A stretch of DNA of 64,000 nt, from the NCBI GenBank assembly GCA_963678675.1, contig OY783193.1, positions 29,544,016-29,608,015 of the forward strand, read 5' to 3'. Shown one piece after another: positions 1,172 through 62,823 of the stretch. Position numbers and translations under genes: made by a program. Within the stretch, counting starts at the first letter, position 1. Every line of letters begins with the position of its first letter. A model generated the notes under the pieces. It did no database searches and was not told the origin of the DNA. It saw nothing but the letters and a program-made list of their open reading frames with translations. Source of the DNA: Xiphydria camelus. Its lineage: Eukaryota; Arthropoda; Insecta; Hymenoptera; Xiphydriidae.

Positions 1172-2265
1172 TACAGTATTTTATATAAAGAATAGGATAA
1201 TATACACATAATAGAATCATTTACATATTATATTACCAACTAAAAAAATGTTTTCTGTTATCCATCATGTTTTTCCCGCAATTTCTAAAAATTTCCTTTG
1301 ACCCTTTTTAATGTTATCATCGGAATTAACAGTTCAGTTTTTTCTCCGTACTAGTACTTAAACCTTTGCCAGTAAACAATATTTGTTAGAGCAAGTTTAG
1401 CATATTTTAAAATATCCTTCAATGCCTCCGAATGGAAATGAATCGGTGAATCCAAGAACAGTATAAGTCCAAAAAATGGCGTTTTGAGTTAAGATAGGTA
1501 GCCAAAATATTAAAAATTCTAAGCTCCATATATTGTCAAGAACCGATTCCTATCAGTAATAAGAAAATCCACGTATTTAGCATCCGTCATTATAGTTTTC
1601 AAGAGCTTGAAATGATGGCCATTAACTCATTGTGAAGTTATTATGTTTTTTCATTTTTTCTCGAAACTATCTTTATGCATTTTTACTGTTCTTGGACTCA
1701 CCGATTCAAATAGACTGCGTCTCGCGCCTTACTACGCATGTGCTAAAAAATCGTTCCAACTCAGAACTAGGGACTGAAATTACCGTTCGAGAACCAGTTC
1801 TGTTACAGTTCGCGGTTGGATCGCTCGTTGGAATCGTTCCAGAACTAGTTCTGTGTTTGTTGGAACGGCTGGGTCAGACTGCGCACACTCCGTTGAGTTA
1901 AGAACCAGTCCTCGTGTTAGTTGGAACGAATCTAGTGACTGCTCTCGAAGGTTCTCATTAAATTTTGTAAAATAATTTCATATTTTTCTTTTTCAAAATA
2001 AATGTCAACATAACCACGTAACATAAACAAAGAATTTGTAAATAAAAGTAGTTTTAAAAGTGCAAGTGCAATAAACCCAATTCATAAGTGATGAATATCG
2101 GTATCGAAGATATCTTATCAATTCTAGGAGTCAAAAATTCCGCTAGTGGAAGGAGAAGCGGTATTGAAAGCAGGTTTGTATTTTCCTGCGGAATCAAAAA
2201 GAGAAACCAAAATGCAGTGAAAATCATCGCTTCTTGCGTACAATCGTCACATGGTACTATTTGCT
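1172..2265 (+). repeat. Left arm of a 3.6-kb palindromic element
   Basis: This 1.09-kb arm is present in inverted orientation at 3688-4771, with a few percent mismatches and short indels. Inside the arm is a short frame starting ATGAATATCG at about 2089 that encodes EDILSILGVKNSASGRRSG, mirrored in the other arm. The outer border is around TACAGTATTTTATATAAAG. I found no matching target-site duplication and no transposase. The arm also carries a segment (about 1885-1925) that recurs as a small palindrome at 46765-46899. Confidence 0.8.
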
Positions 2266-2349
2266 ACGGCGCCCTGCCGCCAGGTGGCGCCGACCTTCGA
2301 CTCCACGGCTTTCGGCTTCTCGTTAGTGGTCCATCAACAGGCAAGTTTC

Positions 2350-2357
2350 TATATAAG
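2350..2357 (+). promoter_or_regulatory. TATA box in the retrozyme 5' LTR
   Basis: TATATAAG, with the same box at 2991-2998 and 5451-5458. Start sites about 30 bp downstream would place the RNA 5' end within a few bases of the ribozyme, which begins at 2391. Transcription itself is inferred. Confidence 0.6.
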
Positions 2358-2390
2358 ACCGCAACTGCCCATCTATCACCGAGGACCACA

Positions 2391-2460
2391 GAGCGTCTAA
2401 GGCAGGAGTCGGCCTAGCCTTACTGACGAGTCCACAGGCCGACTCCGGGACGAAACGCTC
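2391..2460 (+). ncRNA. Type III hammerhead ribozyme, copy 1
   Basis: A self-cleaving RNA with every conserved core base. Stem III pairs GAGCG with CGCTC. The cleavage triplet is GUC (cut after 2397). Stem I pairs UAAGGC with GCCUUA. The core CUGACGA is followed by stem II (GUCC/GGAC) and GAAA. Both termini lie in stem III, hence type III. Loop 1 (GGAGUCGGCCU) and loop 2 (AGGCCGACUCC) are perfectly complementary over 11 nt, which would allow a kissing interaction that normally speeds cleavage. Confidence 0.93.
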
Positions 2461-2497
2461 CGCCGATAAGATGGCGACCACATCCTTTTCGCCACAT

Positions 2498-2515
2498 TGG
2501 TGACCCCGACGTGAT
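2498..2515 (+). promoter_or_regulatory. Primer binding site, tRNA-Trp type
   Basis: TGGTGACCCCGACGTGAT is complementary to a tRNA 3' end reading ATCACGTCGGGGTCA-CCA, which I recognise as insect tRNA-Trp. It starts one base after the 5' LTR. The same 18 bases occur on the minus strand at 33716-33733, at the 5' LTR of the CsRn1-like Gypsy element. Confidence 0.85.
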
Positions 2516-2864
2516 CCAGCGAAGGAGATCATCATCCTGCAGCATACCTTCTGGACCAAGGGAACTCCCATGACAAGGACACCTTGATCTCTGGAAGCAG
2601 AACCGACGTCACGCTGACGGCACGGCACGTGTACACGCCCCGTCACGGCACACTCACGCCCCGGCACGGCACATGTGTACACGCCCCGTCATGACGTCAC
2701 GGCTCACACACTCAGGATCGATCTCTCACACGCTGCGACGAACACACCGGCGGAGTTTCCAACCCACGACGTTCCAGCCACACGCAGACACGCTCACAGC
2801 TAAGCCGTTGCCACACACACCAACTTCTTCCGCTTCGTTCCGTCTGCATACATCAGACGTCACT

Positions 2865-2877
2865 AGGGAGGGAGTAC
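2865..2877 (+). promoter_or_regulatory. Polypurine tract of the retrozyme
   Basis: AGGGAGGGAGTAC directly precedes the TGTAGCGG start of the 3' LTR, as expected of the primer for plus-strand DNA synthesis. The same tract precedes the isolated LTR at 5348. Confidence 0.75.
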
Positions 2878-3127
2878 TGTAGCGGCCCGTCACGCTACGG
2901 CGCCCTGCCGCCAGGTGGTGCCGACCTTCGATCCCACGGCTTTCGGCTTCTCGTTAGTGGTCCATCAACGGGCAAGTTTCTATATAAGACCGCAACTGCC
3001 CGTCTATCACCGAGGACCACAGAGCGTCTAAGGCAGGAGTCGGCCTAGCCTTACTGACGAGTCCACAGGCCGACTCCGGGACGAAACGCTCCGCCGATAA
3101 GATGGCGACCACATCCTTTTCGCCAAA
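2878..3127 (+). repeat. 3' LTR of the retrozyme
   Basis: A complete 250-bp LTR beginning TGTAGCGG. Its last bases read CGCCAAA instead of CGCCACA, so the final dinucleotide is altered. It contains a TATA box at 2991-2998 and a hammerhead at 3022-3091. Confidence 0.85.
3022..3091 (+). ncRNA. Type III hammerhead ribozyme, copy 2
   Basis: Identical in secondary structure to copy 1: stem III 3022-3027/3086-3091, cleavage after C3028, stem I 3029-3034/3048-3053, core 3054-3060, stem II 3061-3064/3079-3082, then GAAA at 3083-3086. The complementary loops are 3036-3046 and 3067-3077. No core position deviates from the consensus. Confidence 0.93.
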
Positions 3128-3552: not shown

Positions 3553-3690
3553 GTAACAAGTGCTCCTCACGATTTGAAGTGAACATCTTACTAGTAAACA
3601 ACAATAAAGAAGTAACGTGCAAGTGCAGCTGGGCCAGAGGAAGACGCAAACATGTTTTTGCAACGCTTCTGTACATAGATCAGTACGGCA
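3553..3690 (+). pseudogene. SWIM-type zinc finger gene fragment
   Basis: Read in frame from GTCACATGTAAC (about 3546), the DNA encodes VTCNKCSSRFEVN and then VTCKCSWARGRRKHVFATLL before a stop at about 3691. The CxC...KHvxAtLLYI spacing resembles a SWIM zinc finger (CxCxnCxH), although the second cysteine position is not conserved. An upstream stretch (AGLYFPAESKRETK, near 3470-3510) appears to join it after a one-base frame change. It is a broken fragment. The SWIM call is from motif resemblance only. Confidence 0.4.
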
Positions 3691-4771
3691 AATAGTACCA
3701 TGTGATGATTGTACGCAAGAAGCGATGATTACTACATTTTGGTTTCTCTTTTTGATTCCGCAGGAAAATACAAACCTGCTTTCAATACCGCTTCTCCTTC
3801 CACTAGCGGAATTTTTGACTCCTAGAATTGATAAGATATCTTCGATATCGATATTCATCACTTATGAATTAGGTTTATTGCACTTGCACTTTTAAAACTA
3901 CTTTTATTTACAAATTCTTTGTTTATGTTTCGTGGTTATGTTGACATTTATTTTGAAAAAGAAAAATATCAAATTATTTTACAAAATTTAATGAGAACCT
4001 TCGAGAGCAGTCACTAGGTTCGTAACGCGAGGACTGGTTCTTAACTCGACGGAGTGTGCGCAGTCTGACCCAGCCGTTCCAACAAACACAGAACTAGTTC
4101 TGGAACGATTCCAACGAGCGTTCCAACCGCGAACTGTAACAGAACTGGTTCTCGAACTGTAATTTCAGTCCCTAGTTCTGAGTTGGAACGATTTTTTAGC
4201 ACATGCGTAGTAAGGCACGAGACGCACTCTATTTGAATCGGTGAGTCCAAGAACAGTACAAATGCATAAAGATAGTTTCGAGAAAAAATGAAAAAACATA
4301 ATAACTTCACAATGAGTTAATGGCCATCATTTCAAGCTCTTGAAAACTGTAATGAGGGATGCTAAATACGTGGATTTTCTTATGACTGATAGGAATCGGT
4401 TCTTGACAATATATGGAGCTTAGAATTTTAAACATTTTGGCTACCTATCTTAACTCAAAACGCCATTTGTTGGACTTATACTGTTCTTGGATTCACCGAT
4501 TCATTTCTATTCGGAGGCATTGAAGGATATTTTAAAATATGCTAAACTCTTGCTCTAACAAATATCGTTTACTGGCAAAGGTTTAAGTACTAGTACGGAG
4601 AAAAAACTGAAATGTTAATTCCGATGATAACGTTAAAAAGGGTCAAAGGAAATTTTTAGAAATTGCGGGAAAACATGATGGATAACAGAAAACATTTTTT
4701 TATTTGGTAATATAATATGTACATGGTTCTATTATGTGAATATTATCCTATTCTTTATATAAAATACTGTA
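3688..4771 (-). repeat. Right arm of the 3.6-kb palindromic element
   Basis: Reverse complement of 1172-2265. The outer end (CTTTATATAAAATACTGTA) runs straight into the middle of a MITE cluster at 4772, so either the border is not a true transposon end or a rearrangement joined them. Confidence 0.8.
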
Positions 4772-5317
4772 GACGTCACCGTAGCTAATGAGGGCATGAG
4801 AATTAATTGTTCACTGGTTAGTACGTTTAAAAATAAGGTTTAAAAAAAGTCACCAGCGACAGATTCCGTGAGCCCGAGTGTACACCCGTGCTCACGGAAT
4901 CTGTCGCTGGTGACTTTTTTTAAACCTTATTTTTAAACGTACTAACCAGTGAACAATTAATTCTCATGCCCTCATTAGCTACGGTGACGTCTACTCTCGT
5001 TAATGAAAGCACGAGGATTGATTAATCATTGGTTAGTACGTTTAAAAATAACATTTAAAAAAAGTCACCAGCGACAGATTCCGTGAGCCCGGGTGTACAC
5101 CCATGCTCACGGAATCTGTCGCTGGTGACTTTTTTTAAATGTTATTTTTAAACGTACTAACCAATGATTAATCAATCCTCGTGCTTTCATTAACGAGAGT
5201 AGACGTCACCGTAGCTAATGAGGGCATGAGAATTAATTGTTCACTGGATAGTACGTTTAAAAATAAGGTTTAAAAAAAGTCACCAGCGACAGATTTCGTG
5301 AGCACGGGTGTACATAT
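4772..5317. mobile_element. Tandem array of TA-flanked palindromic MITEs (CACCCG family)
   Basis: At least two and a half head-to-head units of about 215 bp. Each unit is nearly a perfect palindrome: CACCCGNGCTCACGGAATCT...GTCGCTGGTGAC followed by a T run, then GTACGTTTAAAAATAA in the stem. Adjacent units share a TA (TGTACACCCG). Single copies with TA on both sides occur at 7454-7670 and 17401-17617, showing a TA target preference as in Tc1/mariner MITEs. No coding capacity. Confidence 0.85.
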
Positions 5318-5318
5318 G

Positions 5319-5597
5319 TACATCAGACGTCACTAGGGAGGGAGTACTGTAGCGGCCCGTCGCGCTACGGCGCCCTGCCGCCAGGTGGCGCCGACCTTCG
5401 ACTCCACGGCTTTCGGCTTCTCGTTAGTGGTCCATCAACGGGCAAGTTTCTATATAAGACCGCAACTGCCCGTCTATCACCGAGGACCACAGAGCGTCTA
5501 AGGCAGGAGTCGGCCTAGCCTTACTGACGAGTCCACAGGCCGACTCCGGGACGAAACACTCCGCCGATAAGATGGCGACCACATCCTTTTCGCCACA
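5319..5597 (+). mobile_element. Retrozyme 3' end: solo LTR with polypurine tract
   Basis: The last 29 bp of the retrozyme internal region, including AGGGAGGGAG, followed by a complete 250-bp LTR (5348-5597, TGTAGCGG...CGCCACA). It abuts the MITE at TGTACATATGTACATCAG. The rest of the element is absent, so this is a 5'-truncated insertion or a recombination product. Confidence 0.85.
5492..5561 (+). ncRNA. Type III hammerhead ribozyme, copy 3 (one stem III mismatch)
   Basis: Same structure as copies 1 and 2, with CUGACGA, GAAA and GUC intact and the complementary loops preserved. Base 5558 is A instead of G, giving a C-A mismatch at the third pair of the short stem III. It should cleave more weakly; this is inferred. 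Confidence 0.88.
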
Positions 5598-7453: not shown

Positions 7454-7670
7454 TACACCCGTGCTCACGGAATCTGTCGCTGGTGACTTTTTTTAAACCT
7501 TATTTTTAAACGTACTAACCAGTGAACAATTAATTCTCATGCCCTCATTAGCTACGGTGACGTCTACTCTCGTTAATGAAAGCACGAGGATTGATTAATC
7601 ATTGGTTAGTACGTTTAAAAATAACATTTAAAAAAAGTCACCAGCGACAGATTCCGTGAGCCCGGGTGTA
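7454..7670. mobile_element. CACCCG-family MITE, single copy
   Basis: 217 bp from TACACCCG to CGGGTGTA, with TA at both ends. The sequence matches the cluster at 4772-5317 and the copy at 17401-17617. Confidence 0.85.
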
Positions 7671-8142
7671 CATACATACGGTAGATAGCAGATATAGATT
7701 AGAAATTGTCAAATTACAGACGAATCAATTGGAAATCATTTGGGGAATTGAACCCTATTGTTAATTTCATTTGGGAAACAATATTTATGTAATTAATAAT
7801 TAATTATCGTTCCACAGTGAAAACTGTTTTATCAATATATCATAAATACGTTGACGGTTACCGACTGTTAGATACCTAGGTTTACATAATTTGATAATTA
7901 ATTAGGTAGGAATTACTCCTATCGTTTGGAAATAGTTTGGGAATATTTAGGAAATTAGTTTCAGATTTTGAGAAACGTTAATTAATTTATTATAAATTAT
8001 TGTTTACTTGACCGTATTAGGTAGATAGCAAATATTAATTAGAAATTGTCAAATTACAGACGAATCAATTGGAAATCATTTGGGGAATCGAACCCTATTG
8101 ATAATTTCATTTGGGAAATAATACTTAGGTAATTAATAATTA

Positions 8143-16689: not shown

Positions 16690-18159
16690 CTAATTGTTAT
16701 TAGGCTCTAGTAAATTTAGAAAATATACAATAAAATCTTCTCTAAAATTATGATGATTATTATCAGCAACCGCATTATTTTCATCAGCGTCTAACAAATC
16801 AAAATTAATGTTTGGGTCCTGAATGGGATCTTGCTCGTTCATACTACGGGCTACATTATGTAACACTGCACATGCTACTATTACTGATTGTGCCATATCA
16901 ACAGATAGCCTTATTCCAAGAGACAGAATAGGAAACCTTCGTTTCAGTACACCGAATAACCTTTCAATAGGGTTTCGAGTTCTAATTTGTGATTCATTAA
17001 ACAGTTGTTCCGCTTGTGTTGCTGGATTAAGTATCGGTGTTATAACGTATCTTTTTAAAGCATATCCTGAATCGCCAAGCAGTACTCCATTACCAAATTC
17101 CTCATTTTCAAATCGGGCCTTCACTCGACTGTTATTAAATATTGTCTGGTCATGAGTTGAACCAGGCCAACGAGCAACAATATCCCTGAAAAATAAATCT
17201 GCATCTCCTACTACTTGAACATTCAGTGAAAAATAGCCCTTCCGATTTCTAAAGAATTCTGCATTATCTCCTCCTATAAACACATATTAATAATTAAATA
17301 AGTACATATACAGATCAAAATGCAAAACATAAAAATTACCTGGTGAAATTATTCTGATATGGGTACAATCGATGGCACCTATCACTCGAGGAAATCGAGC
17401 TACACCCGGGCTCACGGAATCTGTCGCTGGTGACTTTTTTTAAATGTTATTTTTAAACGTACTAACCAATGATTAATCAATCCTCGTGCTTTCATTAACG
17501 AGAGTAGACGTCACCGTAGCTAATGAGGGCATGAGAATTAATTGTTCACTGGTTAGTACGTTTAAAAATAAGGTTTAAAAAAAGTCACCAGCGACAGATT
17601 TCGTGAGCACGGGTGTACATTGAAAAACTTCTGTTTCACCGTTTCTTGATTTGGCTGGTTGCTTGGCATTTTTATATAGTCTGGTGCTAATGAAATTATT
17701 CTCCTAAGTACTTTCTTGATGACTTGGCCCGCTGTGGTTTTATGTATACCCGCAAAGTCACCAATGCTTTGAAGAATACATCCAGTAGCACAAAACCTTA
17801 GAACAAGTAGTATCTGTTGCATTGCAGTAACAGGATGATTCCTGAAAAATTCGCAAGCATGTAAAATATATTTGCTTTTATATGGTTCAAATTTACCTTT
17901 CAGTTCTTGGTGCTATGTCATTTCCAATTCTCTGCTCTAACATTATCACCGTCTCTTTACTCAGGCGAAATCTCATTTTGAACTCTTCATCATTCCATCT
18001 CTCGAAATGATTGACACGGAATCTAAAATTTCTCGGAGCCCTATGAACTACTACCCTTCTACGTTCGTCACATTCTGCATCAGAATCACTAGAATCTTCA
18101 CTGTCGGTACTTTCTTCCCAGAGTCTTATATTATTTCTATCATTACACGATGATGCCAT
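16690..18159 (-). pseudogene. Harbinger DDE transposase gene, interrupted by a MITE
   Basis: Three exons: 18159-17897 (MASSCNDRNNIRLWEESTD onward, acidic N-terminus and helix-turn-helix-like region), 17841-17340, and 17273-16690. Introns are GT-AG. The catalytic residues are present: D in GAIDCTHIRI, D in LLGDSGYALKRYVITP, and E in NPIERLFGVLKRRFPILS, followed by the usual HNV block. The middle exon is split by the MITE at 17401-17617. Removing the MITE and one TA restores an open frame across KFFNVARFPR. All other positions look intact, so the element was probably functional until that insertion. The nuclease acts at the transposon TIRs. Confidence 0.88.
17401..17617. mobile_element. CACCCG-family MITE inserted in the transposase gene
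   Basis: 217-bp palindromic MITE flanked by TA on both sides, which duplicates the TA of the target AATGTAGCTCGA. This gives a direct reading of the target site for the family. Confidence 0.92.
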
Positions 18160-24920: not shown

Positions 24921-27900
24921 TTAATGAGCTATTTTTGCTCTATCGCAATGTACGATTTTCCGCTTATTTTTAGCTAACTCTATTTCTATATCGTTTTTGT
25001 CGGGAAATACTTCCGTAATTTTATACGGACCCTTATAATTGTCATCGAGTTTACCCGCTTTATGATCCTTAATTAAGTAAATTTCTTGACCGATTTGGAA
25101 TTGAACTGGATGAGTTCTTTTATCGTAATAAATTTTTGATTTTTGTTTAGCTTTCTCTAAATTCTCGTGAGCATTTTTTCTAACTTCTTGAGTTTGCAAT
25201 ATCGTGTTTCTAAGATAGTTGTCATAAGTGAAGATTTCTTCTAAAGGTGGGAATTCCGATGGCATACGTGCTTCTGTACTATCAGATGGTATTGATTTAA
25301 TTGTTTTTGATTTCTTATTAACTTTCTTGCGACATTTCGTAATTTTCCTATCGTGATGATGTTGATTATCAGAACAACATGAACATTTCTTTGGTTTGTG
25401 AGGTCGGGTTGATTGTCTGATTACTGGAATTTGTTTGGGAGCAAGATTTTGGGAAGGATTTACATGCGAAGAGATGTTTTTTGGTGGAATGATTTGTTTT
25501 AATTCTATACGTTTTATACTGTCGTTCACGCCTGGGCTTGAGGAACTCTCCGACCAGTTCGCCTGCGCGTCGGTGTGTACGTCAGCGATAGTTGTAATAA
25601 TAATTGGACCAGCGTCACTGTCGCTCGAATCGCTTTTTAATTTTCGCAAATTTTCGTTAGATGTAGGTGGTTCTGTTGCTTCGAGAATATTAGATAAGGA
25701 AAGATTTGGTTTTGGGATAGCAACATTCAAATCTGTAATATCGTTAATAATTCCACTAGGTCTTCGCTCACTCCTGAGTGGATAAGGAGTTGAGGAATAT
25801 CTCGGGGATTCATGGATGTTTTGACGTTTTCGAGAGACAGGAGAAGGAGTGAGGGCGTCACTCTTCCTTATCAAAGGTGAAATTCTATCTAAAGGAGACT
25901 CCGAAGATTTTTCGCGTTCTAAAGATTCAAGAGATTCTTGTACTACTGGCGATTCCGGTATGTGAGGAGTTGGCTTCCCTTTTGGAGACTTTGTTGAATC
26001 GGTAAGCCTATAAACGTCGGTAACGTCCAGGTCTACCTTATTGATTTTCGAGGAAGAGTCTAAATTACGATTTACAGATATGATAGTATCATCATAATCT
26101 GGGAGAACAATTGATTGATTTTTGATTTTAAGAGAATGAGAAATGATTTCGGTTTCACTCGTGTTATCTTGATCCGAAGAAGATGACGAACTCAGCCCAT
26201 CGTAAGGTATGAATCGTTTGATTTCGAATTTTTGTTTCATGATTTTCGTAGATTTCTTATGAATAGGACTAGGAGTCGTAGTGTGTTTGTATTTTCTTTT
26301 AAATAAAACACGACGGTCGATAGGTTGATCAGACCCAGCGCCGTGGTTCGGTTGTTCCTTCAATGGCAACGACCGACCTTCTAGATTTGGTTGATTTAAG
26401 ATTTTTGGAATTTCAAAACGAGGAAACCCTAAGAAATCATTCTCTGAATCAGATTTTGGATTTGGACTCTTTCTCGATACGTTAGCTTTGTGAGGAAAGC
26501 CTAGAAAATCTTCTGAACTTGAATTAGCGCTTGAAGTTATAATCTTTTGTTTTTTATGTTCACCATGACAAGACGACGAGGAGTGCAATCTAGCGATTCC
26601 GGGAAGAATATCGGTTGAGTGTCGCCACTTAATCTTTATAGGATAAATGTTCGCTGATGGTACAGGATTCCTTGACAGAGCATCGGCGTTGGTATTTATC
26701 TTACCTGCTTTATACTGGATTTTAAAGTCAAATTCTTTCAAGCGTTCTCTCCATCTCATTACACGCGATGTCGGGTCATTCATAGAATTTACCCATATTA
26801 GCGGTCTGTGATCGGTAATCAGTGTGAACTGTCTACCATAGAGATACGGCCTGAAAGTTTTGATTGCAAATATTGTAGCGAGCATTTCCTTTTCTGTGGT
26901 AGAGTAATTACACTCATGCTTATTTAAAACTCTAGACGCATAAGAAACTGGGAGATCTTCTCCTATTTCAGCTTGCGAAAGGATTGCTCCTACGGCGAAT
27001 CTTGATGCATCGGTAGTGACTATAAATTCTTTTGAAAAGTCTGGGTATTGTAAAATTGGAGCGTTGCACAATTTGTCTCGGAGAATTTCGAATGCGATTT
27101 GGTGTTTGGGTTCCCATTTGAATTCTGAATTTTTGCTAGTCAAATCGGATAATGGTTTAGCAGTTTTTGCGAAGTCTTTTATGAATTTTCGATAATAGCC
27201 TGCTAAACCTAAAAATTCTTTTACGTTTTTTTGCTTTTTTGGAACTGGAAAAGATTTTACAGCCTCTATTTTGCTTGAGTCTGGTTTAACGCCTTCCGCT
27301 GAGATGATATGCCCAAGGTATCTCACTTCCGTTCTTAAAAATTCACATTTGTCGGTTTGAAGAGTTAAATTGGCTTTTCTTAATCTTTCGGCAAGTTTTT
27401 TGAATTTGATATTATGTTCTTCAAGTGATCGCGCATAAATTACTATGTCGTCTAAGTAGACGAAAAGATCGTTACCTTGTAATCCGAGCAAAACTAAATC
27501 CATTAATCGTTGAAAAGTCGCAGGGGCGTTCTTTAAACCAAAAGGCATTCTATTAAACTCGTAGTGACCATGAGGCGTAGTGAAAGCTGTTTTATGTTTA
27601 TCTTCCGCATCCATTTGAATTTGATGAAAACCCGAGGCCAAATCGAAAATTGAAAAATACTTAGCTCCACCCAGCTGATCTAAGATGTCTGATATTAGTG
27701 GCAAAGGATATGCATCTCCTATTGTCTTCTCGTTTAGCTTTCGAAAGTCGATTACTAGTCGCCAGTGTTTATTACCTTTCGAGTCGGGTTTTTTGGGGAC
27801 AATCCATAACGGTGAGTTATACGGTGAATTTGATGGTTCTATGATATTCATTTTTAATATTTCACTAACCTGTTTCTCTATTTCTTGCTTTTGAAAGGGA

Positions 27901-28760
27901 GGGTACCTGTATTGTCTAGTATTGATGGGCTGTTCTGTTGTTAGTCGAATTCTATGAGTTAATGCGTTTGTCGCGCGTAGCGCTTCGCCGGGAATATGGA
28001 AGAGGTCAACGTACTTCTCTACGAGATCAGTAATCGCTTTACACTCTTCCATATTTACGTGGTCTAAACGCAGTAATTGGAGGACTCTATCAACACGACC
28101 GGTACTATGTTCTAGAGCCTCACTAACTTGCAGATTATTTTCCTCGTCACTGCTCATGTCGAAAGGGTACAGAGGCACGACGGGTACTTCCACTGTTACA
28201 TCTTCGTCTAGCGCGTTAATGGCATACAAGTACGCTTTCCCAAAAGTATTTTTTACGACAGCTTCGCCCATAAAAATCCCTTCTTGAGTTTTTATTCGTG
28301 GTAGGTAACCTTCACTAGAAGATCCATTTTCTAATCTAACGAACATTAGAGTTTTTTGTCTAGCCGGGAGTAGGAAACTTTCTTTATTCGTGAAAGGATA
28401 AGAAACTCGATTTAAAGTTACCGATTGATTTTCGAAGTCAACGCGTCCACGTTGGATATGTAATAGTTCCGCACCTATTATTGCGTCTTGTTCGAGAGGG
28501 AAGTCATCAGGGATTACATGGAAATTAATTTGGTAATTATTTAAGATAATTCCTATCCTCCCTAGCGTTCGCGGTCGATCGATTTCGGACACTCCATTTA
28601 ATTCGTAGATGATTGTTTCATCAATCATTTCAGGATTTGCAATTTTATGAATTTTGATAAGATTCAATTGTGACCCTGAGTCTACTAAAAATTCGGAATT
28701 TCCACCTACTATTCCTTCTGAAGGAAGAAACAGAGTGGGAGATTTGTAATTTGACGAGTT
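24921..28760 (-). CDS. Gypsy element 1 Pol: protease, RT, RNase H, long linker, integrase tail
   Basis: An uninterrupted frame of roughly 1,280 residues. It contains the aspartic protease site FLVDSGSQ (about 28690-28667), reverse transcriptase with FRKLNEKT, FSIFDLASGFHQIQM and YLDD (27446-27460), and RNase H with VTTDASRFAVGA, NYSTTEKEMLA, LITDHRPLIW and NADALSR. Instead of the integrase HHCC finger and DDE core there are about 400 residues rich in Ser, Lys, Pro and Asp, including DFLGFP twice. The end carries the usual integrase C-terminal GPY/F module (LDDNYKGPYKITEV). Entry to this frame would be by a -1 shift from gag near a CAA repeat. The intact frame in an integrase-less protein is odd: either a recombinant, or a family whose linker replaces the core. 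Confidence 0.85.
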   Translation of the reverse strand, partial: NSSNYKSPTLFLPSEGIVGGNSEFLVDSGSQLNLIKIHKIANPEMIDETIIYELNGVSEIDRPRTLGRIGIILNNYQINFHVIPDDFPLEQDAIIGAELLHIQRGRVDFENQSVTLNRVSYPFTNKESFLLPARQKTLMFVRLENGSSSEGYLPRIKTQEGIFMGEAVVKNTFGKAYLYAINALDEDVTVEVPVVPLYPFDMSSDEENNLQVSEALEHSTGRVDRVLQLLRLDHVNMEECKAITDLVEKYVDLFHIPGEALRATNALTHRIRLTTEQPINTRQYRYPPFQKQEIEKQVSEILKMNIIEPSNSPYNSPLWIVPKKPDSKGNKHWRLVIDFRKLNEKTIGDAYPLPLISDILDQLGGAKYFSIFDLASGFHQIQMDAEDKHKTAFTTPHGHYEFNRMPFGLKNAPATFQRLMDLVLLGLQGNDLFVYLDDIVIYARSLEEHNIKFKKLAERLRKANLTLQTDKCEFLRTEVRYLGHIISAEGVKPDSSKIEAVKSFPVPKKQKNVKEFLGLAGYYRKFIKDFAKTAKPLSDLTSKNSEFKWEPKHQIAFEILRDKLCNAPILQYPDFSKEFIVTTDASRFAVGAILSQAEIGEDLPVSYASRVLNKHECNYSTTEKEMLATIFAIKTFRPYLYGRQFTLITDHRPLIWVNSMNDPTSRVMRWRERLKEFDFKIQYKAGKINTNADALSRNPVPSANIYPIKIKWRHSTDILPGIARLHSSSSCHGEHKKQKIITSSANSSSEDFLGFPHKANVSRKSPNPKSDSENDFLGFPRFEIPKILNQPNLEGRSLPLKEQPNHGAGSDQPIDRRVLFKRKYKHTTTPSPIHKKSTKIMKQKFEIKRFIPYDGLSSSSSSDQDNTSETEIISHSLKIKNQSIVLPDYDDTIISVNRNLDSSSKINKVDLDVTDVYRLTDSTKSPKGKPTPHIPESPVVQESLESLEREKSSESPLDRISPLIRKSDALTPSPVSRKRQNIHESPRYSSTPYPLRSERRPSGIINDITDLNVAIPKPNLSLSNILEATEPPTSNENLRKLKSDSSDSDAGPIIITTIADVHTDAQANWSESSSSPGVNDSIKRIELKQIIPPKNISSHVNPSQNLAPKQIPVIRQSTRPHKPKKCSCCSDNQHHHDRKITKCRKKVNKKSKTIKSIPSDSTEARMPSEFPPLEEIFTYDNYLRNTILQTQEVRKNAHENLEKAKQKSKIYYDKRTHPVQFQIGQEIYLIKDHKAGKLDDNYKGPYKITEVFPDKNDIEIELAKNKRKIVHCDRAKIAH

Positions 28761-29484
28761 CGAACTAAGCTTACAATCTGCTGATTGAATGAGGATTTCG
28801 GATTTCTTTTGAATTATAGAATTTGGACGTTCCTCGTCGCTTCTACCTGCGGCGAGGACGTTTGCGCGTTTCCCGACTGGGCGGGTTGTTGTTGTTGTTG
28901 TTGTTGTTGTTGTTGCTGAGGCGGTGTTTGACGTTTTAAGTTATTGTAAGCGCGTTTTCTTCAATCTTTAATTAAATGCCCCTTTTTCTTGCAATAATTG
29001 CACTCAATGGTGATTTGATTAGGTTGAACTTGAGTCTGATTTCGACCTTGTGTCTGATCGTTAAGAAGCTGATAGCAGTGATTGGCATCATGCCCTTGTT
29101 TTTTGCAAAAGATACAAGTCCTATATATTGCCTAGATTTTGATTTGGGTTGATTGAACGAGATTTCTGTGAGTTAGGGTTTTGAGAGTTCGTATTTGGTC
29201 GCGAATTGTAAGAAGTCTGTGCGGTAAAACAGTCCCTCTGTTTATCGTCCTGTTCCGATAAATGATCGATCTCTACTTGCTCGGCAGCCAAAGCAGCGCT
29301 TCTGAGGCTATCGAAAGGTCCTTTCGGCATAAAAGGTTTATAAACTTTATAAATTCCAAAAAGAAAGGTTTCGGTCGCAACACACTCTGCTGAAATTTTT
29401 CGTCGCTCTTTTTGATCGGCGGTAGAGTTCTCTCGATCGATAGCTTCAAGTAGGTCCTCGAGATGTCGGTTGATTCTAAAGTTA

Positions 29485-29671
29485 TGTGGGGGCTATGCCA
29501 CATAAGGAGAGCAAATCGATAGATCGTGAAATAAACTGCGTTTATTGAACAAAGGAGCACAAAGAGCATACACGTGATCGTGTCGCGAGAGAGACTCCTA
29601 CCGACTGTGTAGTCTCGTGACTACACCTCTTCTCCGCGTGGAGCGCTGGCGGTGTGTGTCGGGCCCCCCCC
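29485..29671 (-). repeat. 3' LTR of Gypsy element 2
   Basis: Matches 33738-33911. The expected GGGTCCCCACA end is replaced by a run of 20 C (29664-29683), which on the minus strand is a G run between the pol stop and the LTR. This merges the polypurine tract with the LTR start and may include a sequencing or slippage artefact. Confidence 0.8.
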
Positions 29672-29682
29672 CCCCCCCCCCC

Positions 29683-32600
29683 CTAAGTGGAGAGTTGATG
29701 GCTGGAACTCTCCGTCGCTGCTTCATGGTTGAACGTAACCTTCCTCTTGCCTGGGTACGTTCGTGGCGCCTGATCGGGCGCTGCTGGCTGTTGGCTGGTT
29801 GTAGGTTGATTTTCGACGGCATCGTCAGTGGCAATGTGAGCTGGCTTCAACTGTTCAACGCTGACGTTGCTGTCTTTTCCGTTTACTCGGATGGTAAAGA
29901 CCCGGTCATCGATTCGCTTGATGACTTCGTGGGGTCCTGAATACGGCTGTTCGAGAGGTCGTTTGACGTGATCGAGCCTCAGGAAGACATGAGTACAGGT
30001 GTATAGGTCCCTGTAGCAGAAGGTTTTCTGCTTACAGTGGTGCGCAGCTGGTACCGGCTTGACGTTTCTAATATGTTGTCTAAAGTCCTCTAGGAAGAAG
30101 TGTGGGTCCTCTGGAGGGTCTTCGTTCGTGAAGAATTCTCCAGGGATCCTTAGTGTTGTACCATAGAGGTATTCGGCCGGTGATGCTCGCAGCTCTTCCT
30201 TGTAGCACGTCCTCAATCCTAACAGAACTGTTGACAGAACCTGTGTCCATTTCTCCGTAGCGTGGCATTTTATTGCTGTTTTTAACATGCGGTGCCAGCG
30301 TTCGATCATGCCGTTCGCAGGAGGGTGAAAAGCGGTGGTTCTGATTCGCTTTTCGCCGACTAGTTTTGACAGCGCCGTAAACAGCGCGCTTTCAAACTGC
30401 GTTCCCTGATCGGTAGTAACAATTTTTGGCGTGCCGAATCGGGCAATCCAATGAGTGAAGAAGGCGTTCGCTACAGTTGGTGCTGTGATGTCCCGGATTG
30501 GGATGGCTTCGGGCCACCTGGTGAAACGATCGACCATGGTGAGTACGTATTTGAATCCCTGTGACTCTGGCATTGGTCCTACCAGGTCGATGTGGACATG
30601 GTCAAAACGTTGGTCGGGTTCTGTGAATTTCGCTGGCTGCACATGGACGTGGCGACCAATCTTCGATCGTTGGCAAGCGATGCAGTTCCTGGCCCAGAGC
30701 GTTATATCTTTGTTCATCGATGGCCAGACGTACCTCTGGGCGATGATCTTCCCAGTAGCGCGTCCGCTCGGGTGTGACAGATTGTGGAATGCTTCGAAGA
30801 TTTTACGGCGAAGCTGTTGAGGCACGAAAGGGCGTATATCCGTCGTAGAGACGTCGCAGTAAATGGCCTGGTGGTCTGGACCGTGTGTGAGTTTCTGCAA
30901 CCGCAGGGATGAGTTTGTGTCATTGATGAGATCTCTGAGCTCGGGATCCTGTGACTGGGTTTGCGCCAGTTCGTCGAAATCGATGGTTGTAGGCATTCTG
31001 AAGGCGTCGATGCGTGAAAACGCGTCGGCGACTTCATTCGAAGGGCCTTCGATGTAGCGGATCTCTGTCGAGAACTCGCTGATGAAGGAAAGTTGCCTCA
31101 GCTGCCGTGGTGATGCTTTGTCTGAGCGCTGCTGAAAGGCGTAAATGAGTGGTTTGTGATCTGTGAAAATCGCAAATTCTCTTCCTTCTACCCATTGTCT
31201 AAAGAATTTGATAGCTTCGTAGATCGCTGTCAATTCACGATCATACGTGCTATAGTTGCGTTGCGCTGGCGAGAGTTTCTTCGAAAAGAATCCGAGAGGT
31301 TCCCAGTCGTTGTTGTTGACGCTTTGTTCCAGAGCGGCGCCAATTGCGGAACTCGACGCGTCGGTGGTTAGACGGAGTTCGGCTGCCTGCACCGGATGAG
31401 CTATGATAGTAGCGTCGGCGAGCTGCTGTTTGATGTTCTCGAAGGCTGCCTCTGATGCAGGTGTCCATGGAACGGGTCGCTTGTCGTTCTTCTTGGACTC
31501 CTTAAGCATATCGTTCAATGGTGCTTGGACGGTGGCAGCGTTCCTGAGGTGTCGGCGATAAAAGTTGATAGCGCCGATGAAACGTCTGAGCTCTACAATT
31601 GTTTGAGGTTTTGGAAACTCTTGCAGTGCTTTGATGCGCTCTGTGAGCGGCTGTGAGCCTCTAACTGATACTTGGTAGCCCAGGAACTGCACGCTTTCTT
31701 TCCCCAGTACGCATTTTTCCGTGTTTAAGCATAGGCCGAATTTTACTAACCGCTGGAAGACGGTGTCGAGATGGCGTTCGTGTTCCTCTTCAGATGTCGA
31801 GGCGATCAGCAGGTCATCGATGTAGGCGAATACAAAATCCAAATCGCCAATGACTTCGTGAATGAATCTCTGGAAGGTTTGAGCTGCATTTCGGAGCCCG
31901 AATGGCATGCTTGTGAATTCGAACAAACCAAACGGGGTAATCACTGCGGTCTTCTGGATGTCGTCTTCGGCTATCGGGATGTGGTAGAATGCTTTGCGCA
32001 GGTCCAGCGTGCTGAAGATCGTCTTACCTGCCAAATTGGCGGTGAAGTCCTGGAGAAGGGCCACTGGGTAGCGATCAGGGATCGTCTGCTTGTTAAGTCT
32101 CCTGAAATCGCCACACGGTCTCCAGACCCCATTCTTCTTTTTTGCCATATGGAGTGGACTGGCCCATGGACTCGTAGAAGGCCTGGCTAAACCTAGTTCA
32201 ATCATTGCTCTGAACTCCTCTTTGGCGGCCTTGAGTCGATCGAGTCTAAGTGTCCTGACTCGCTCAGTGCACGGGGGTCCAGTAGTGTTGATGAAATGTT
32301 TGGTTGAATGAACAGCTGTCGCAGTGTTTGATGGGCTTCCGAGAAGTGTCGGATACTTCTTGAGAATCGTCCAATATTTGCTGTTCTGATCGTTGATTGC
32401 GGTGATGGAGTTGATGGGTGCTGGCGCCATCAAACCGGTGCTCGAAAGTCCAGTATCTCTGCTGGTGATTCGTCCATTCTTGAGCGTGGCCGGGATGACC
32501 GATACATCCGCGCCGGTGTCGACCAAAAACTTGTAGTTGGAATACGTGTCGAGGATGAAAAGTCGGCGAGGAGCGTCTTGGCCACCGCTAGTCGCCGAGT

Positions 32601-32712
32601 CTAGTGGCGGATACTCGCGTTTCCCTGGTTCTGGATAGGGGTAGGGTACGAGCAGGGTATTGTACACCTCGTTGCGTTGTCTCCAAAGCGCCTGTGATAA
32701 AAACAAACTTCA
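29683..32712 (-). CDS. Gypsy element 2 Pol: protease, RT, RNase H, integrase
   Basis: Complete enzyme set for reverse transcription and integration, about 1,007 residues. Motifs in order: protease FLVDTGADVSVIP; RT with CGDFRRLNKQT, FSTLDLRKAFYHIPI and YIDD (31813-31824); RNase H with LTTDASSSAIGA, NYSTYDRELTAIYEA and FTDHKPLIYAF; integrase zinc finger HNLSHPSG...CIACQRSK; DDE core residues in HIDLVGPMP, VTTDQGTQFES and NGMIERWHRM; then QPYSGPHEV. The frame opens after TGA near 32712, overlaps gag by about 110 nt and lies in its -1 frame, so expression needs ribosomal frameshifting; I could not fix the slip site. The stop (TAG) directly precedes the G-run polypurine tract. No disabling change seen. 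Confidence 0.92.
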
Positions 32713-33659
32713 TCGTTCGCTTGCGGATTGCTAGCAAATGTGCGCGTCGCACCGCTCTGTAAACGACCGCGTCTGCTGCGGGAGTAGCTGCGTGAACGAC
32801 GCTGTTTTGCTGAACGGGCCACCTCGTCCAGTTTAGCGGCTAGGTCTTCCATTCTAGCGCTTAGTTTTTCCTGATTAGTGCTAAGATTGCCTAGTTGGAC
32901 ACTGAGGGCGTCGACCTTCCGAGCAATGTCGTCGTTGTCCCTCGATGAAATTGGCATCACTTGGTTAACCTCCCTCGTGGGTGTCGGCATTGCTTGGTTA
33001 CTGTTTCTCGTTGCTATTGGCATTACTTGGCTATTGTCCGTGCTTACCGCTATGTCTGCGATGCGGTCAGCCAGGCGCGACAAGGCCTCTAATGCGAGGC
33101 CATCGGCAGCGGTGAGCGCCACTTGGATGTGAGCTGGCAAGCGGTCCATCCATAGCGTCTTAATTACGGCATTGTCTAACAGGTTACCTCCGAGGCGGTT
33201 GATTTCCGCTAATAGTTCTGAGGGGCGCTTACAGCCGAGCTCGAGCCCCGAGACGAGCGTCCTTATGCGCTTCTCTTGTGAAAGCGAGTAATGATCGAGT
33301 AAAGCCTCCTTGATTTGGCGATATTTATTGTGGGCCGGAGGGTTTGTAACGAGGTGTTCCACGACCGATAAGACGTCTTGACTGAGTCGATTTATTACTG
33401 CGTGGTACTTAGCGTTGTCTGATAAAGTGCGCCGAGCAACGAATTGAGACTCGATGGCGGTGAACCATAGACCAACCTTCTTGTCCCAGAATGGTGGTAG
33501 TTCTCCCCTTTCCGTCGCGTATACATCGTCCTCTTGGTGTGCGACCGGCTCCTGGTTCCGTGGTTCGCCGGCTTCCTGACGACGTAGTGCATCGGCGTTC
33601 TCGGCGTCTCGTGGGTGAGTCGGCGAACGGTTTACCGGCATGGCGTATTGGCGTTCCAT
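32601..33659 (-). CDS. Gypsy element 2 Gag
   Basis: 352 residues from an ATG shortly downstream of the primer site. A capsid-like region (PPFWDKKVGLWFTAIESQF; LVTNPPAHNKYRQIKEALLD) is followed by a coiled-coil stretch and an Arg/Ser segment (RRSRSYSRSRRGR). Near the C-terminus is CFYHRRFGDNATRCTIPCSY, the Cys-His-Cys-Cys form that replaces ordinary CCHC knuckles in CsRn1-clade elements. The reading frame is intact. Confidence 0.9.
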   Translation of the reverse strand: MERQYAMPVNRSPTHPRDAENADALRRQEAGEPRNQEPVAHQEDDVYATERGELPPFWDKKVGLWFTAIESQFVARRTLSDNAKYHAVINRLSQDVLSVVEHLVTNPPAHNKYRQIKEALLDHYSLSQEKRIRTLVSGLELGCKRPSELLAEINRLGGNLLDNAVIKTLWMDRLPAHIQVALTAADGLALEALSRLADRIADIAVSTDNSQVMPIATRNSNQAMPTPTREVNQVMPISSRDNDDIARKVDALSVQLGNLSTNQEKLSARMEDLAAKLDEVARSAKQRRSRSYSRSRRGRLQSGATRTFASNPQANDEVCFYHRRFGDNATRCTIPCSYPTPIQNQGNASIRH

Positions 33660-33715
33660 TGTTCATACGGACTACGGGCGCACACGTTCACTTTCACTGG
33701 CTTCTTTCTCCAAAT

Positions 33716-33733
33716 CACGTCGGGGTCACCAAT
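33716..33733 (-). promoter_or_regulatory. tRNA-Trp primer binding site of Gypsy element 2
   Basis: On the minus strand TGGTGACCCCGACGTGATTT, complementary to the tRNA-Trp 3' end for 20 bases, five bases inside the 5' LTR. Identical over 18 bases to the site in the retrozyme at 2498-2515. Confidence 0.88.
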
Positions 33734-33737
33734 CTTA

Positions 33738-33924
33738 TGTGGGGGCTATGCCACATAAGGAGAGCAAATCGATAGATCGTGAAATAAACTGCGTTTATTG
33801 AACAAAGGAGCACAAAGAGCATACACGTGATCGCGTCGCGAGAGAGACTCCTACCGACTGTGTAGTCCCGTGACTACACCTCTTCTCCGCGTGGAGCGCT
33901 GGCGGTGTGTGTCGGGTCCCCACA
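33738..33924 (-). repeat. 5' LTR of Gypsy element 2
   Basis: 187 bp, TGTGGGGGC...GGTCCCCACA on the plus strand. A TTTATTG sequence (plus 33794-33800, AATAAA on the minus strand) provides a likely poly(A) signal. Confidence 0.88.
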
Positions 33925-41880: not shown

Positions 41881-42637
41881 TTACGCATGATATTTATTAG
41901 AGCAAAACGGATAAATTTTTATTACTTAGAACCTGTTTTCAGACACTGTCCGAAAGAGGATTTCGGCAATTTATTTAAAACCGATTCCCCGGACATTAAT
42001 TTTAACGGTCAAGAAGTAATGAAACTCAAATTTTAATGCAAAAAATGTAAAATTTACATCCATGCTTACCATAAAGAATAACTCACAACAATAAATATCA
42101 AATAACAATAATTTTATTTACTATTGCATTGAGCAGTTTCCACTAAAACTTCTGTAGCCAACCGTTGAAAATACGCCCATGTGTAAAGACGACCATTTTA
42201 AGAATGTTTCGTTTCTATGCCTGTCACCAGAGGACCATGCAAACTCTTGTGGCTCTTGTGTAAAGGCCCCTGTACACGTTGGGTCAATGAGTTGGGATAC
42301 CGTTTACACGTTGGCGTTGCTCATTCTGCATTGGCCATTTAACGAGGATGGACGTGGACACTATCGCAGCCGCGGCCATTTACTTGTCAGCACTTTCTAT
42401 TTTGTATAGGTTTTCTCGTCTGACAATTATTTTATGTGTTTCGAAAAATCTCTGAAACAATATGTTAAAACGTCAGAGGTAAAACAAAATTTTTTAAGAC
42501 AAAAAATGACAAGTCATGTAATATATTAAAACGTCAGACGGAGGTAAGATAAAAAAATGTTCGAAATCAAAATTACAAATTTGAGGGCGTCTGACACCCC
42601 TTTATTAGTGATCTAGCCGTCTGACGATTTACATAGG
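41881..42637. other. AT-rich sequence without a gene
   Basis: Only a GGCCCCTGTACACGTTGGG-like segment (42266-42285) stands out; it recurs as a small palindrome at 43436-43487 (GGCCCTGTACACGTTGGCCC and reverse). Short AAACGTCAGA(G/C)GGAGGTAA repeats lie at 42465-42550. Confidence 0.5.
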
Positions 42638-43065
42638 TACACCCGCGGCCACGGTGTCTGTCGCTGGTAACTTTTTTAAACGTTCTTTTTAAACGTACTA
42701 TCCAATGATTAATAATCCTCATGCTTTCATTAACGAGAGTAGACGCCACCGTAGCTAATGAGCGCATGAGAATTAATTGTTCATTGGTTAGTACGTTTAA
42801 AAATAACGTTTAAAAAAGTCACCAGCGACAGATACCGTGGCCGCGGGTGTACACCCGGGGACACGGTAACTGTCGCTGGTGACTTTTTTTAAACGTTATT
42901 TTTAAACGTACTAACCAATAATTAATAATCCTCATGCTTTCATTAACGAGAGTAGATGCCACCGTAGCTAATGAGCGCATGAGAATTAATTATTCATTGG
43001 TTAGTACGTTTAAAAATAACGTTTAAAAAAAGTCACCAGCGACAGATGCCGTGTCCCTGGGTGTA
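42638..43065. mobile_element. Two tandem CACCCG-family MITEs, divergent subfamily
   Basis: Units 42638-42851 and 42850-43065 share a central TA. Their ends differ (CACCCGCGGCCACGG and CACCCGGGGACACGG) from each other and from the cluster at 4772, while the inner stem (GTCGCTGGTGACTTTTTTT-like) is conserved. Confidence 0.82.
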
Positions 43066-43552
43066 CCTACATCATTTGTGACCTTCAAACAAGTAACATA
43101 CAAATTTTCAGCCCGAGGTACGAATATTTTTTGAGCAAAACTTTTTTCTTTTTTGAGTCATCTGGCGTGTCTTTTGCAGGGATTCTGAGCAACATCCTTG
43201 CAAATGACACTTCCTAATGGTCCCTCCAATCACCTCAAGAAATTCTAGTCAAAGGTATTATCGTAATACCTCCGTGGCCGCCATCTTTTAGTATATGTAT
43301 AACGGCACCTACGAGAGGCCAACGTGTGAACGCTGTTGGCGGACTGCGCCAAGATCCTTTGATGTGTGGACGAAAAACCGACAACACTCGGCTGGCCGGC
43401 CAACGCTGGCCGCCAACGATAAATTTAAGTCAAGTGGCCCTGTACACGTTGGCCCAACGCATTGGTCCAACGTGTACAGGGGCCTTTAGAAACAGACAGT
43501 CTAATGAAAACGTGTGTCTTTGCTTAGAAGGAAAGAGATGGAAATTTAAGCG

Positions 43553-58253: not shown

Positions 58254-58387
58254 TCCATCCATCCTCAGTAAGTGTCGGTCCTTCGTAGCTGCATATTGAA
58301 TCGTGGCGTTCTACATTCAGTGGAAAATTTTTCGTTCTACATTTTGTGTCAAATTTGTTGTTCAATTTTTATGAAATTAATTTCAGA

Positions 58388-61300: not shown

Positions 61301-62823
61301 GAGGTCGTGGCTATTAATACAACTCTTTTTTATTTCAAAGAATCACAGCAGTCACTAAAAACGATACTGATCTAGCCACTATTTCATTACATTATGAGTT
61401 AGCTCCGTTCCCACTTTCACTATTTGATGAAGAAGGATTGATGTGAAAATGAAAAAAATCAGAGCTGTACAACGTCTTCACTTCTCAATCAATAACAAGC
61501 ATCAATATTTCTGAGTACAAAATCGTTATTGATGGAGGATTTTTGGTGCATAAAGTAGTGTGGCCTCTTGGAAGTACCTATCAGCAAGTTCTCCAGTTAT
61601 ATAAAAATTACGTTGTCAAGAATTATGGGCCAAATGCCATTGTTGTTTTCGATGGTTATGGAGAAACTATTACTAGAGTTAAATCGTATGAGAGGATGAG
61701 ACGTTCGAAGAATAATAAAAGTACCGAAATAATTTTTGAAAAGGAGATGATAATCACTGTTAATCAATCAAAATTTCTGGCTAATGACAAAAATAAGGGA
61801 AGATTGATTGAATTCTTAAAACTACAATTTCTGAGTGCTGGAATAGGAGTTCAACAAGCATCTGAAGATGCAGATGGCTTGATTGCAAGGACTGCAATTG
61901 AACAATTGAATCATCATGAAAACGTTGCAGTAGTTGGTCAAGATGTTGACTTGCTCGTGTTGTTAATTGCCTTGACTCCAGCAGACAAAGATATTTCTTT
62001 TGTAAAGCAAGGTACTGCTAAAGGTTCCAACGTGGTAGTTTCAACGCAAAAGCATAATCATTTAAGAAACAGAATTCTTTTGAGCCATGCTTTCACGGGA
62101 TGTGATACCACCAGTGCAATTTTTCAAAAAGGGAAGAAGTCGTTTTTGAATATTTTGAAGAAGAAAAATTATTTTAAGGACGATGTAGCAGTTTTCAACG
62201 ATGGAGGCTCTACAAGGGAAGATATTAAAAAAGCAGGAGAACGTCTGATGTTGTCTCTCTATGGGGCTACTGAAAATAAAACATCTATCAATACTTTTCG
62301 CTATGAACGTTTTGTACAATCTGCAGTACGTGGTACAACATAAGTACGATTGGCACAATTACCACCCACGGCTGCAGCTACTGAAGAGCATATTTGGCGT
62401 GTATATTTTCAAGTACAAAAGTGGCTTGGCAACGATCAACTTAAGCCAGACGATTGGGGTTGGGAATTAAAGAATCAAATTCTTGTTCCTGTCATGACCA
62501 GAGCACCACCTGCACCAGAATCAATCCTGAAGATGATATTTTGCTCGTGCAAAGGAAACTGCTCAACTCATTGTGGATGCAGAAAAGCTGGTCTGAAGTG
62601 TTCCAGTGTTTGCTTGATTTGTCATGGAGACTCTTGCACGAATTGCATGAACATTGATCTCTCTTCTGGTTCGTCTTTATTTTCCAATCATTCTGTGGGT
62701 GACTTGATTGATGAATTTGACGTTGCAATCAGTGAACATTTAGATGGAAGCTACACAAGAGTACAAGGCGATAAACTCCCTAAAGATTTAGATGAGGCAA
62801 CGCCCGTGAAAAAACAACGTTAA
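58388..62823 (+). pseudogene. Academ transposase/XPG-nuclease protein with cys8 finger (decayed)
   Basis: About 1,400 codons from ATG 58388. N-terminal zinc-binding repeats (CFICDESF, HHCFLCGAHWDPKHK, H-QACYKKF) are followed by a long region with GGFHFLMSFLGALGIIMDGS and GLTRGRGINKEGEIARWILG. The XPG-like nuclease has ASEDADGLIARTAIEQ and VAVVGQDVDLLVLLIA with the paired acidic residues, then the conserved RVYFQVQKWLG block and a C-terminal cys8 cluster CSCKGNCSTHCGCRKAGLKC followed by SSVCLICHGDSC. Disabling changes: frameshift near 59303, TAA near 59419, TGA at 60619-60621, frameshift at the C run 60747-60753, several shifts in 61289-61540, TAA at 62341-62343. Arthropod databases often label such proteins Tesmin/TSO1-like CXC; the Academ call is mine. 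Confidence 0.75.

Follow-up and report, generated by a model that had tools for sequence, protein, structure and literature searches.

Are long terminal repeat (LTR) retrozymes, which were described in plants by Cervera, Urbina and de la Pena in 2016 (PMC4918200), also present in insects? The question is raised by a 64,000-nucleotide stretch of contig OY783193.1 from the hymenopteran Xiphydria camelus (positions 29,544,016 to 29,608,015 of the forward strand; the whole stretch is hereafter the window), near the left end of which a preliminary description had recognized such an element. Our analysis supports a positive answer. The element family is real and is well supported as one of insect LTR retrozymes by its anatomy and by evidence from the whole genome, and the activity of its ribozyme and the existence of a circular RNA are predicted.

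The window holds, at positions 2263-3127, a damaged copy of an LTR element that measures 881 bp when complete and has no recognized protein; the copy lies on the plus strand, the strand of all retrozyme features given below. Self-comparison of the window identified direct repeats of 98% identity, 2263-2494 and 2894-3125, at a spacing of 631 bp. The two 250-bp LTRs of the preliminary description hold for the family and for the 3' LTR (2878-3127, TGTAGCGG...CGCCAAA) and fail for the 5' LTR (2263-2496, with the terminus CGCCACA), which corresponds to LTR positions 17-250 and has lost its initial 16 bp. The 250-bp LTRs are bounded by TG...CA, and all 22 mapped complete arrays of the subfamily designated A end in GCCACA, as opposed to the CGCCAAA of the 3' LTR in the window. 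The internal region of 381 bp (2497-2877) contains no recognized coding sequence. It includes a primer binding site (PBS), TGGTGACCCCGACGTGAT, at 2498-2515, for which the chance expectation is 0.01 with up to three mismatches allowed and which we take to be of the tRNA-Trp type, in line with the earlier assignment. The polypurine tract (PPT) that had also been noted, AGGGAGGGAG at 2865-2874, lies immediately 5' of the TGTAGCGG start of the 3' LTR. Tandem repeats of 21 bp are found within the interior (2618-2673), and interior length varies by about 21 bp in several other copies. The longest ATG-initiated frames in 2264-3127 encode 69 amino acids in the sense and 82 in the antisense direction, in agreement with the reported absence of a protein. 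A TATATAAG box at 2350-2357, LTR position 104, is likely the RNA polymerase II promoter of the LTR. The window copy has no 4-bp target site duplication (TSD) of its own. On either side of it lies one arm of an inverted repeat 1.1 kb in length and 96% identical (1172-2264 and 3688-4771), and the coincidence of its left end with the end of the left arm suggests rearrangement after insertion.

Each LTR carries a complete type III hammerhead ribozyme (HHR), as the preliminary description had stated. The first (2391-2460) and the second (3022-3091) are identical and are predicted to cleave after C2397 and C3028, respectively, the cleavage site being the C of GUC. The parts of the motif are stem III (GAGCGU/ACGCUC), stem I (UAAGGC/GCCUUA), the core CUGACGA, stem II (GUCC/GGAC) and GAAA, and these are arranged in each LTR as GAGCGUC, UAAGGC...GCCUUA, CUGACGA, GUCC...GGAC and GAAACGCUC. 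When both strands were scanned with a strict type III descriptor, the window gave these two sites alone and its 9550 dinucleotide shuffles gave no site, a result that rules out a chance origin of the pair. The cleavage sites reproduce the unit length proposed earlier, a self-cleaved RNA of 631 nt (2398-3028) that is a candidate circle with the junction 3028/2398; this predicted unit has a G+C content of 59.6% and a fold z-score of -6.7 relative to 20 shuffles. The model scan suggested for confirmation gave a different outcome, as Rfam made no call at the gathering threshold and returned a sub-threshold type I match alone (E 0.044), so that the motif would escape routine annotation.

To place this copy in its genomic context, we searched the host genome (357,211,407 bp in 38 contigs, the window lying on contig C10). 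The genome contains 128 matches to 7tm_6, which we take to represent the insect-specific odorant receptors, and none of 14 control genomes has a match; a TTAGG array is present at one of six readable contig ends, and six contig starts that were fetched read N. These findings agree with the insect host. The whole-element query gave at least 67 element matches, 40 of 1387 candidates having been scored. The HHR core pattern occurs 635 times (reversed control, 0) and the junction of PPT and LTR start 110 times (control, 0), a difference that probably reflects a majority of solo LTRs, or of copies whose junction has changed, among the HHR places. Among the first 100 of the 635 places, 16 same-strand neighbours are less than 1200 bp apart, at distances of 212 bp (one), 629-660 bp (five) and 777-865 bp (ten). 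The mapped complete A copies consist of a 250-bp LTR, an interior of approximately 360-420 bp and a second 250-bp LTR. All 22 uninterrupted A arrays that span LTR positions 1 to 250 are flanked by a 4-bp TSD (loci L122-L148 and the window were tabulated), as are seven of eight complete elements of a second subfamily, B, and all 13 solo LTRs selected by hand for full length, two of which are already among the tabulated loci. Nine further copies that are older, interrupted or plain include three with a 4-bp and one with a 3-bp duplication, and the chance rate is 106 in 20,000. The LTRs of a pair, counted ungapped, show 0-6 differences over 250 positions in 17 of the 20 single A elements that retain both ends (all but L137, L138 and L144) and 0-3 over 214 in six of the eight B elements (all but L146 and L173); this near identity indicates recent amplification. 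With the HHR pair, the map of LTRs and interior, the TSDs and the core matches, the retrozyme layout proposed for the window copy extends to a genome-wide family.

The same anatomy would be expected of an ordinary animal terminal-repeat retrotransposon in miniature (TRIM), a small Gypsy-type LTR element that follows a linear RNA route and in which the ribozyme would be carried along passively or would adjust the amount of transcript. The complete A copies of 881 bp have all of the TRIM features (less than about 1 kb, PBS, PPT, no coding sequence), TRIM being the broader structural class, and TRIMs are known from hymenopterans (PMC3532108, PMC10886601). This explanation is at odds with the position of the ribozyme. 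The order within the LTR is TATA box (position 104), HHR (145-214, cut after 151), LTR end and then PBS, and cleavage at this place, downstream of the TATA box and still inside the LTR, would strip away the terminal repeats that a linear route needs, according to the reasoning advanced for plants (PMC4918200).

The TRIM explanation is also opposed by ribozyme conservation, since the HHR is the best-conserved part of the LTR between the two subfamilies. Subfamily B has a 214-bp LTR (TGTG...CAAA) and, in its reference copy L143, an interior of 575 bp. Between A and B the HHR is identical at 69 of 70 positions, compared with 112 of 186 (approximately 60%) in the remaining LTR and 84.8% in the aligned interior. 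The single mismatch is the stem III change of a second copy in the window (5319-5597), which served as the A reference. This copy is truncated at its 5' side and retains the end of the interior with the PPT (5319-5347) and a complete LTR, TGTAGCGG...CGCCACA (5348-5597), the reference LTR of the analysis; in its hammerhead (5492-5561) a G to A change at LTR position 211 disrupts one stem III pair. Gene conversion between A and B could have added to the HHR identity, as several B copies adjoin A copies. Within subfamily A we compared 61 of 72 LTR matches from the whole-element similarity search (at least 231 query positions and more than 94% identity; the window LTRs included and L121 omitted because it repeats the window). 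Non-majority letters make up 18 of 4270 in the HHR and 177 of 10,928 elsewhere, sampling 70 LTR sites at random gives a value as low as that of the HHR in 86 of 20,000 trials, and 50 of the 61 LTRs match the stems and core letter for letter. The HHR ranks 21st among 181 contiguous 70-nt windows, the lowest-ranking of which overlaps it, and taken alone the within-A comparison of sequences is thus of moderate weight. Against the retrozyme explanation, 11 of the 61 LTRs fail the exact-letter test, some of which would still pair through G-U. On balance of this and the evidence on folding and arrays given below, we consider the TRIM explanation unlikely.

An older subfamily is also present. Loci L179-L197 include many old, diverged solo LTRs with approximately 69-89% identity to A, several with the loop II sequence ACGGGCCGACTCCA; their HHR core is retained, and they were picked by the HHR core pattern, a selection that favours intact HHRs.

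The preliminary description had itself raised the possibility that the LTR belongs to a protein-coding Gypsy family in which the ribozyme is not conserved, the window element then being a deletion derivative. The PBS, PPT and TSD are all Gypsy-like and compatible with such an origin. The partial test that we were able to apply argues otherwise. The 22 A arrays and eight B elements enclose interiors of approximately 340-650 bp, and the longest ATG frame is 124 amino acids in the complete A arrays and 168 in the complete B elements, with lengths that differ among copies; no Pfam family was matched when the four longest frames of two B elements were checked. On contig C1, ten of the 11 listed junctions of PPT and LTR start have an HHR core in the next 150-200 bp, and at the eleventh the core lies 624 bp upstream. 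We also rejected an autonomous element with this LTR at L199 and L200, two same-strand HHR pairs of wide spacing, where the frames of at least 150 amino acids match no Pfam family. We therefore regard a coding parent family as very improbable.

A Gypsy element that may nevertheless be related in function is located in the window at 29485-33924 on the minus strand, with 187-bp LTRs, the TSD TAAC, a gag region with DUF7041, and reverse transcriptase (RT), RNase H and integrase. The PBS word of the retrozyme recurs in it exactly (33714-33731), both have 4-bp TSDs, and the 5' box of the LTR is alike at 12-13 of 16 positions. The HHR core was not found in the LTR of this element, and a simple deletion derivative of it was ruled out by the lack of LTR similarity past the end box. 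On these sequence resemblances, the element is a plausible candidate for the type of helper, separate from the retrozyme. A second Gypsy-type polyprotein frame (24921-28940, minus strand, 1339 amino acids) contains RT and RNase H, and no LTR pair for it was seen in the window self-comparison among matches of at least 100 bp.

The explanation that we consider probable is that of an animal LTR retrozyme, a non-autonomous element without recognized protein whose RNA would be cut by its HHRs into a circle, reverse-transcribed in trans by a Gypsy-type enzyme and integrated with 4-bp TSDs. The basis for this is the anatomy, the genome-wide amplification, the 4-bp TSDs, the conservation of the ribozyme between A and B and the multi-unit arrays; cleavage, circularization, the use of the circle as a template and help from Gypsy are what we infer from it. 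Transcription would start from the LTR promoter, and the type III HHR in each LTR would cut the transcript into RNAs of one unit, which would measure 631 nt in the window copy and in most cases about 780 to 865 nt in subfamily B. With both ribozymes cutting, the 631-nt RNA would contain the equivalent of a single full LTR and lack terminal repeats, as has been argued for the plant elements (PMC4918200). A host ligase would close this unit into a circle, which may be spared renewed cutting by an 11-bp hairpin that blocks the ribozyme. Priming by tRNA-Trp at the PBS would allow a Gypsy-type enzyme acting in trans to reverse-transcribe the RNA, the circular template would enable the RT to restore two LTRs and to yield multimers as well, and integration would follow with duplication of 4 bp of target.

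The proposed hairpin derives from an unusual relationship between the ribozyme loops. Loop I (13 nt) is complementary to loop II (14 nt) over 11 nt, and in the hammerhead fold both hairpins are able to close three extra pairs, which exposes the fully complementary hexaloops AGUCGG and CCGACU. For comparison, 24 type III motifs in the 120 viral stretches listed, which served as a yardstick alone, have at most three consecutive Watson-Crick loop-loop pairs, or four with G-U. The nested energy of the active fold is -22.7 kcal/mol before the kiss, and the isolated 6-bp duplex adds about -7.8, such sums of fold and kiss being crude. From these energies we predict a bistable ribozyme in which the hexaloop kiss stabilizes the active fold and the 11-nt loop pairing forms a blocking hairpin of similar energy. 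The reading of this as a switch is tentative and, in our estimate, falls a little short of an even chance: during transcription the kiss would activate the ribozyme, after closure the 11-bp hairpin would protect the circle, and a Gypsy RT running around the circle would generate multi-unit cDNA and hence arrays within a single TSD.

Several results weigh against an active ribozyme and a circular template. Nested folding favours the blocked hairpin (-31.8 kcal/mol) over the active fold, so that the minimum-energy fold of the 70-mer is the 11-bp blocking hairpin and not the hammerhead, and the probabilities of stems I and II are near zero without the kiss. Among 45 distinct 70-mers (partly truncated, and drawn from 139 HHR-like 70-mers in partly overlapping loci, some counted twice), 10 of 13 altered hexaloop pairs remain paired, which is weak evidence for the kiss, and a search of these variants for a compensatory double change in the kissing loops found none; in the same variants, changes in stem I kept pairing in seven cases and broke it in 17, and changes in stem III kept it in 11 and broke it in 41. 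A blocked nested ground state is also what the TRIM explanation would accommodate. A further alternative is that the 70-nt segment is kept for the 11-bp hairpin, for example in RNA packaging or dimerization, and that the hammerhead is inactive; the hairpin is contained in the minimum-energy fold of the 631-nt unit, both linear and circular, as well as in that of the 70-mer. Such a role has no need of an exact CUGANGA/GAAA core, stems III and I of 6 bp each, a stem II of 4 bp and an allowed cleavage site, the combination absent from all shuffles, and kissing could bring the active fold to a similar energy. We judge a hairpin-only function highly unlikely.

The arrays are likewise open to more than one interpretation. 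At locus L131 a trimer (LTR-i-LTR-i-LTR-i-LTR, where i is the interior) is enclosed by a single 4-bp TSD, a dimer at L134 is enclosed in the same manner, and L147 is a chimeric array of A and B. Between units of the trimer there are 3-7 substitutions and a difference of one 21-bp repeat, an inequality that would not be expected from a single circular template without later change and that suits a TRIM; unequal exchange can be an alternative source of arrays. The insertion site of the L134 dimer is common to the monomer L135 and, in opposite orientation, to L126. Because of the unequal trimer units and the shared insertion sites, we do not retain tandem arrays as proof of circular templates, and the LTR retrozyme explanation draws on them only together with its other evidence.

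Shared sites are found more widely. Thirteen of 40 compared insertions fall into five clusters whose members have in common a host repeat spanning the insertion point (L126, L134, L135 and L177; L137, L145 and L173; L132 and L167; L124 and L130; L146 and L159), mostly within 1-5 bp and at about 90 bp for L173. These clusters include opposite orientations and both subfamilies, and a target preference is possible.

The family shares most of its characters with the plant LTR retrozymes (PMC4918200), which also have no recognized protein, a type III HHR in each LTR, LTRs with PBS and PPT, 4-bp TSDs, Gypsy-like boxes, units of 600-1000 nt, solo LTRs and tandem arrays, and an HHR that is blocked in the folded RNA; a G+C content above 55% is a further likeness (PMC7229834). 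It differs in the insect host, in the tRNA-Trp-type PBS compared with tRNA-Met in plants, in LTRs of 214-250 bp compared with 300-400 bp, and in its loops of 13 and 14 nt with 11-nt complementarity compared with a plant loop I of 6-8 nt and loop II of 4 nt (PMC7936874), and its HHR core is matched 635 times in one genome. The metazoan non-LTR retrozymes (Cervera and de la Pena 2020, PMC7229834) likewise have an animal host, no protein and a hammerhead, and circular RNA has been shown for them whereas here it is predicted. Membership in that group was rejected, as it is characterized by type I HHRs, short tandem repeats, RNAs of approximately 170-400 nt, low G+C and no LTR, PBS or PPT. Penelope-like elements, which encode an RT and carry minimal type I HHRs in their pseudo-LTRs, were also rejected, as the element has no long coding frame and its HHR is of type III. 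PbTRIM of the harvester ant (PMC3532108) resembles the family in being a miniature LTR element of an insect that has a PBS, a PPT and a 4-bp TSD. Its LTR of 152-184 bp and tRNA-Leu PBS rule out membership, and the accessible parts of the paper do not mention a ribozyme.

The preliminary description had regarded the animal hammerheads as Penelope-like or small tandem elements, a view that is incomplete given the type III HHRs shown in termite and dipteran genomes (PMC7936874). These, together with the hepatitis delta virus-like RNAs of toad and termite treated there, resemble ours in type III topology and, in insects, in Watson-Crick contacts between loops I and II. They differ in using a short pseudoknot with an internal loop (GCCR/YGGC) in place of complementary terminal hexaloops, and in context: the termite HHRs are isolated motifs, the context of the dipteran motifs is undescribed in the accessible text, which reports no LTR element for either, and ours lie inside an LTR element. 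One paper names elements of 'bacteria or insects' that contain type III HHRs among the possible donors, with reference to an earlier publication and to work in preparation (PMC7761336), and the termite and dipteran report also cites work in preparation, so that others may know more than has been printed. We found no animal LTR retrozyme in open-access titles and the starts of abstracts, a search that leaves most subscription papers and all preprints outside and hence gives no claim to priority. As far as the open-access literature shows, the novelty lies in the host and in the ribozyme loops, whose 11-nt complementarity is new. In our sequence collections, the LTR word and two PBS words had no exact match among the viral contigs, six peptide patterns found no relative of the Gypsy frame there, and the HHR word had no exact match in the genome contig collection.

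The window contains additional features outside the elements discussed. Related palindromic repeats occur at 4769-5314, 7454-7672, 17401-17620 and 42634-43069, the first of which adjoins the second retrozyme copy. At 58289-62823 on the plus strand, successive open frames of 338, 400, 198, 296 and 159 amino acids have no Pfam match and may belong to a single gene as its exons or to a mobile element yet to be described.

In the literature considered here, LTR retrozymes come from plants and the animal retrozymes are non-LTR elements with type I ribozymes, and a large insect LTR family with recent activity breaks this division. The choice between independent origin and transfer between kingdoms thereby becomes testable, and the family offers an animal system for the study of circle-templated reverse transcription. 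The pairing of the loops also leads to a simple prediction on ribozyme switching. If the proposed mechanism is true, the resulting circles would resemble the viroid-like RNAs of insect metatranscriptomes, and the family would be a concrete, non-viral candidate source of viroid-like circular RNAs in insect samples.

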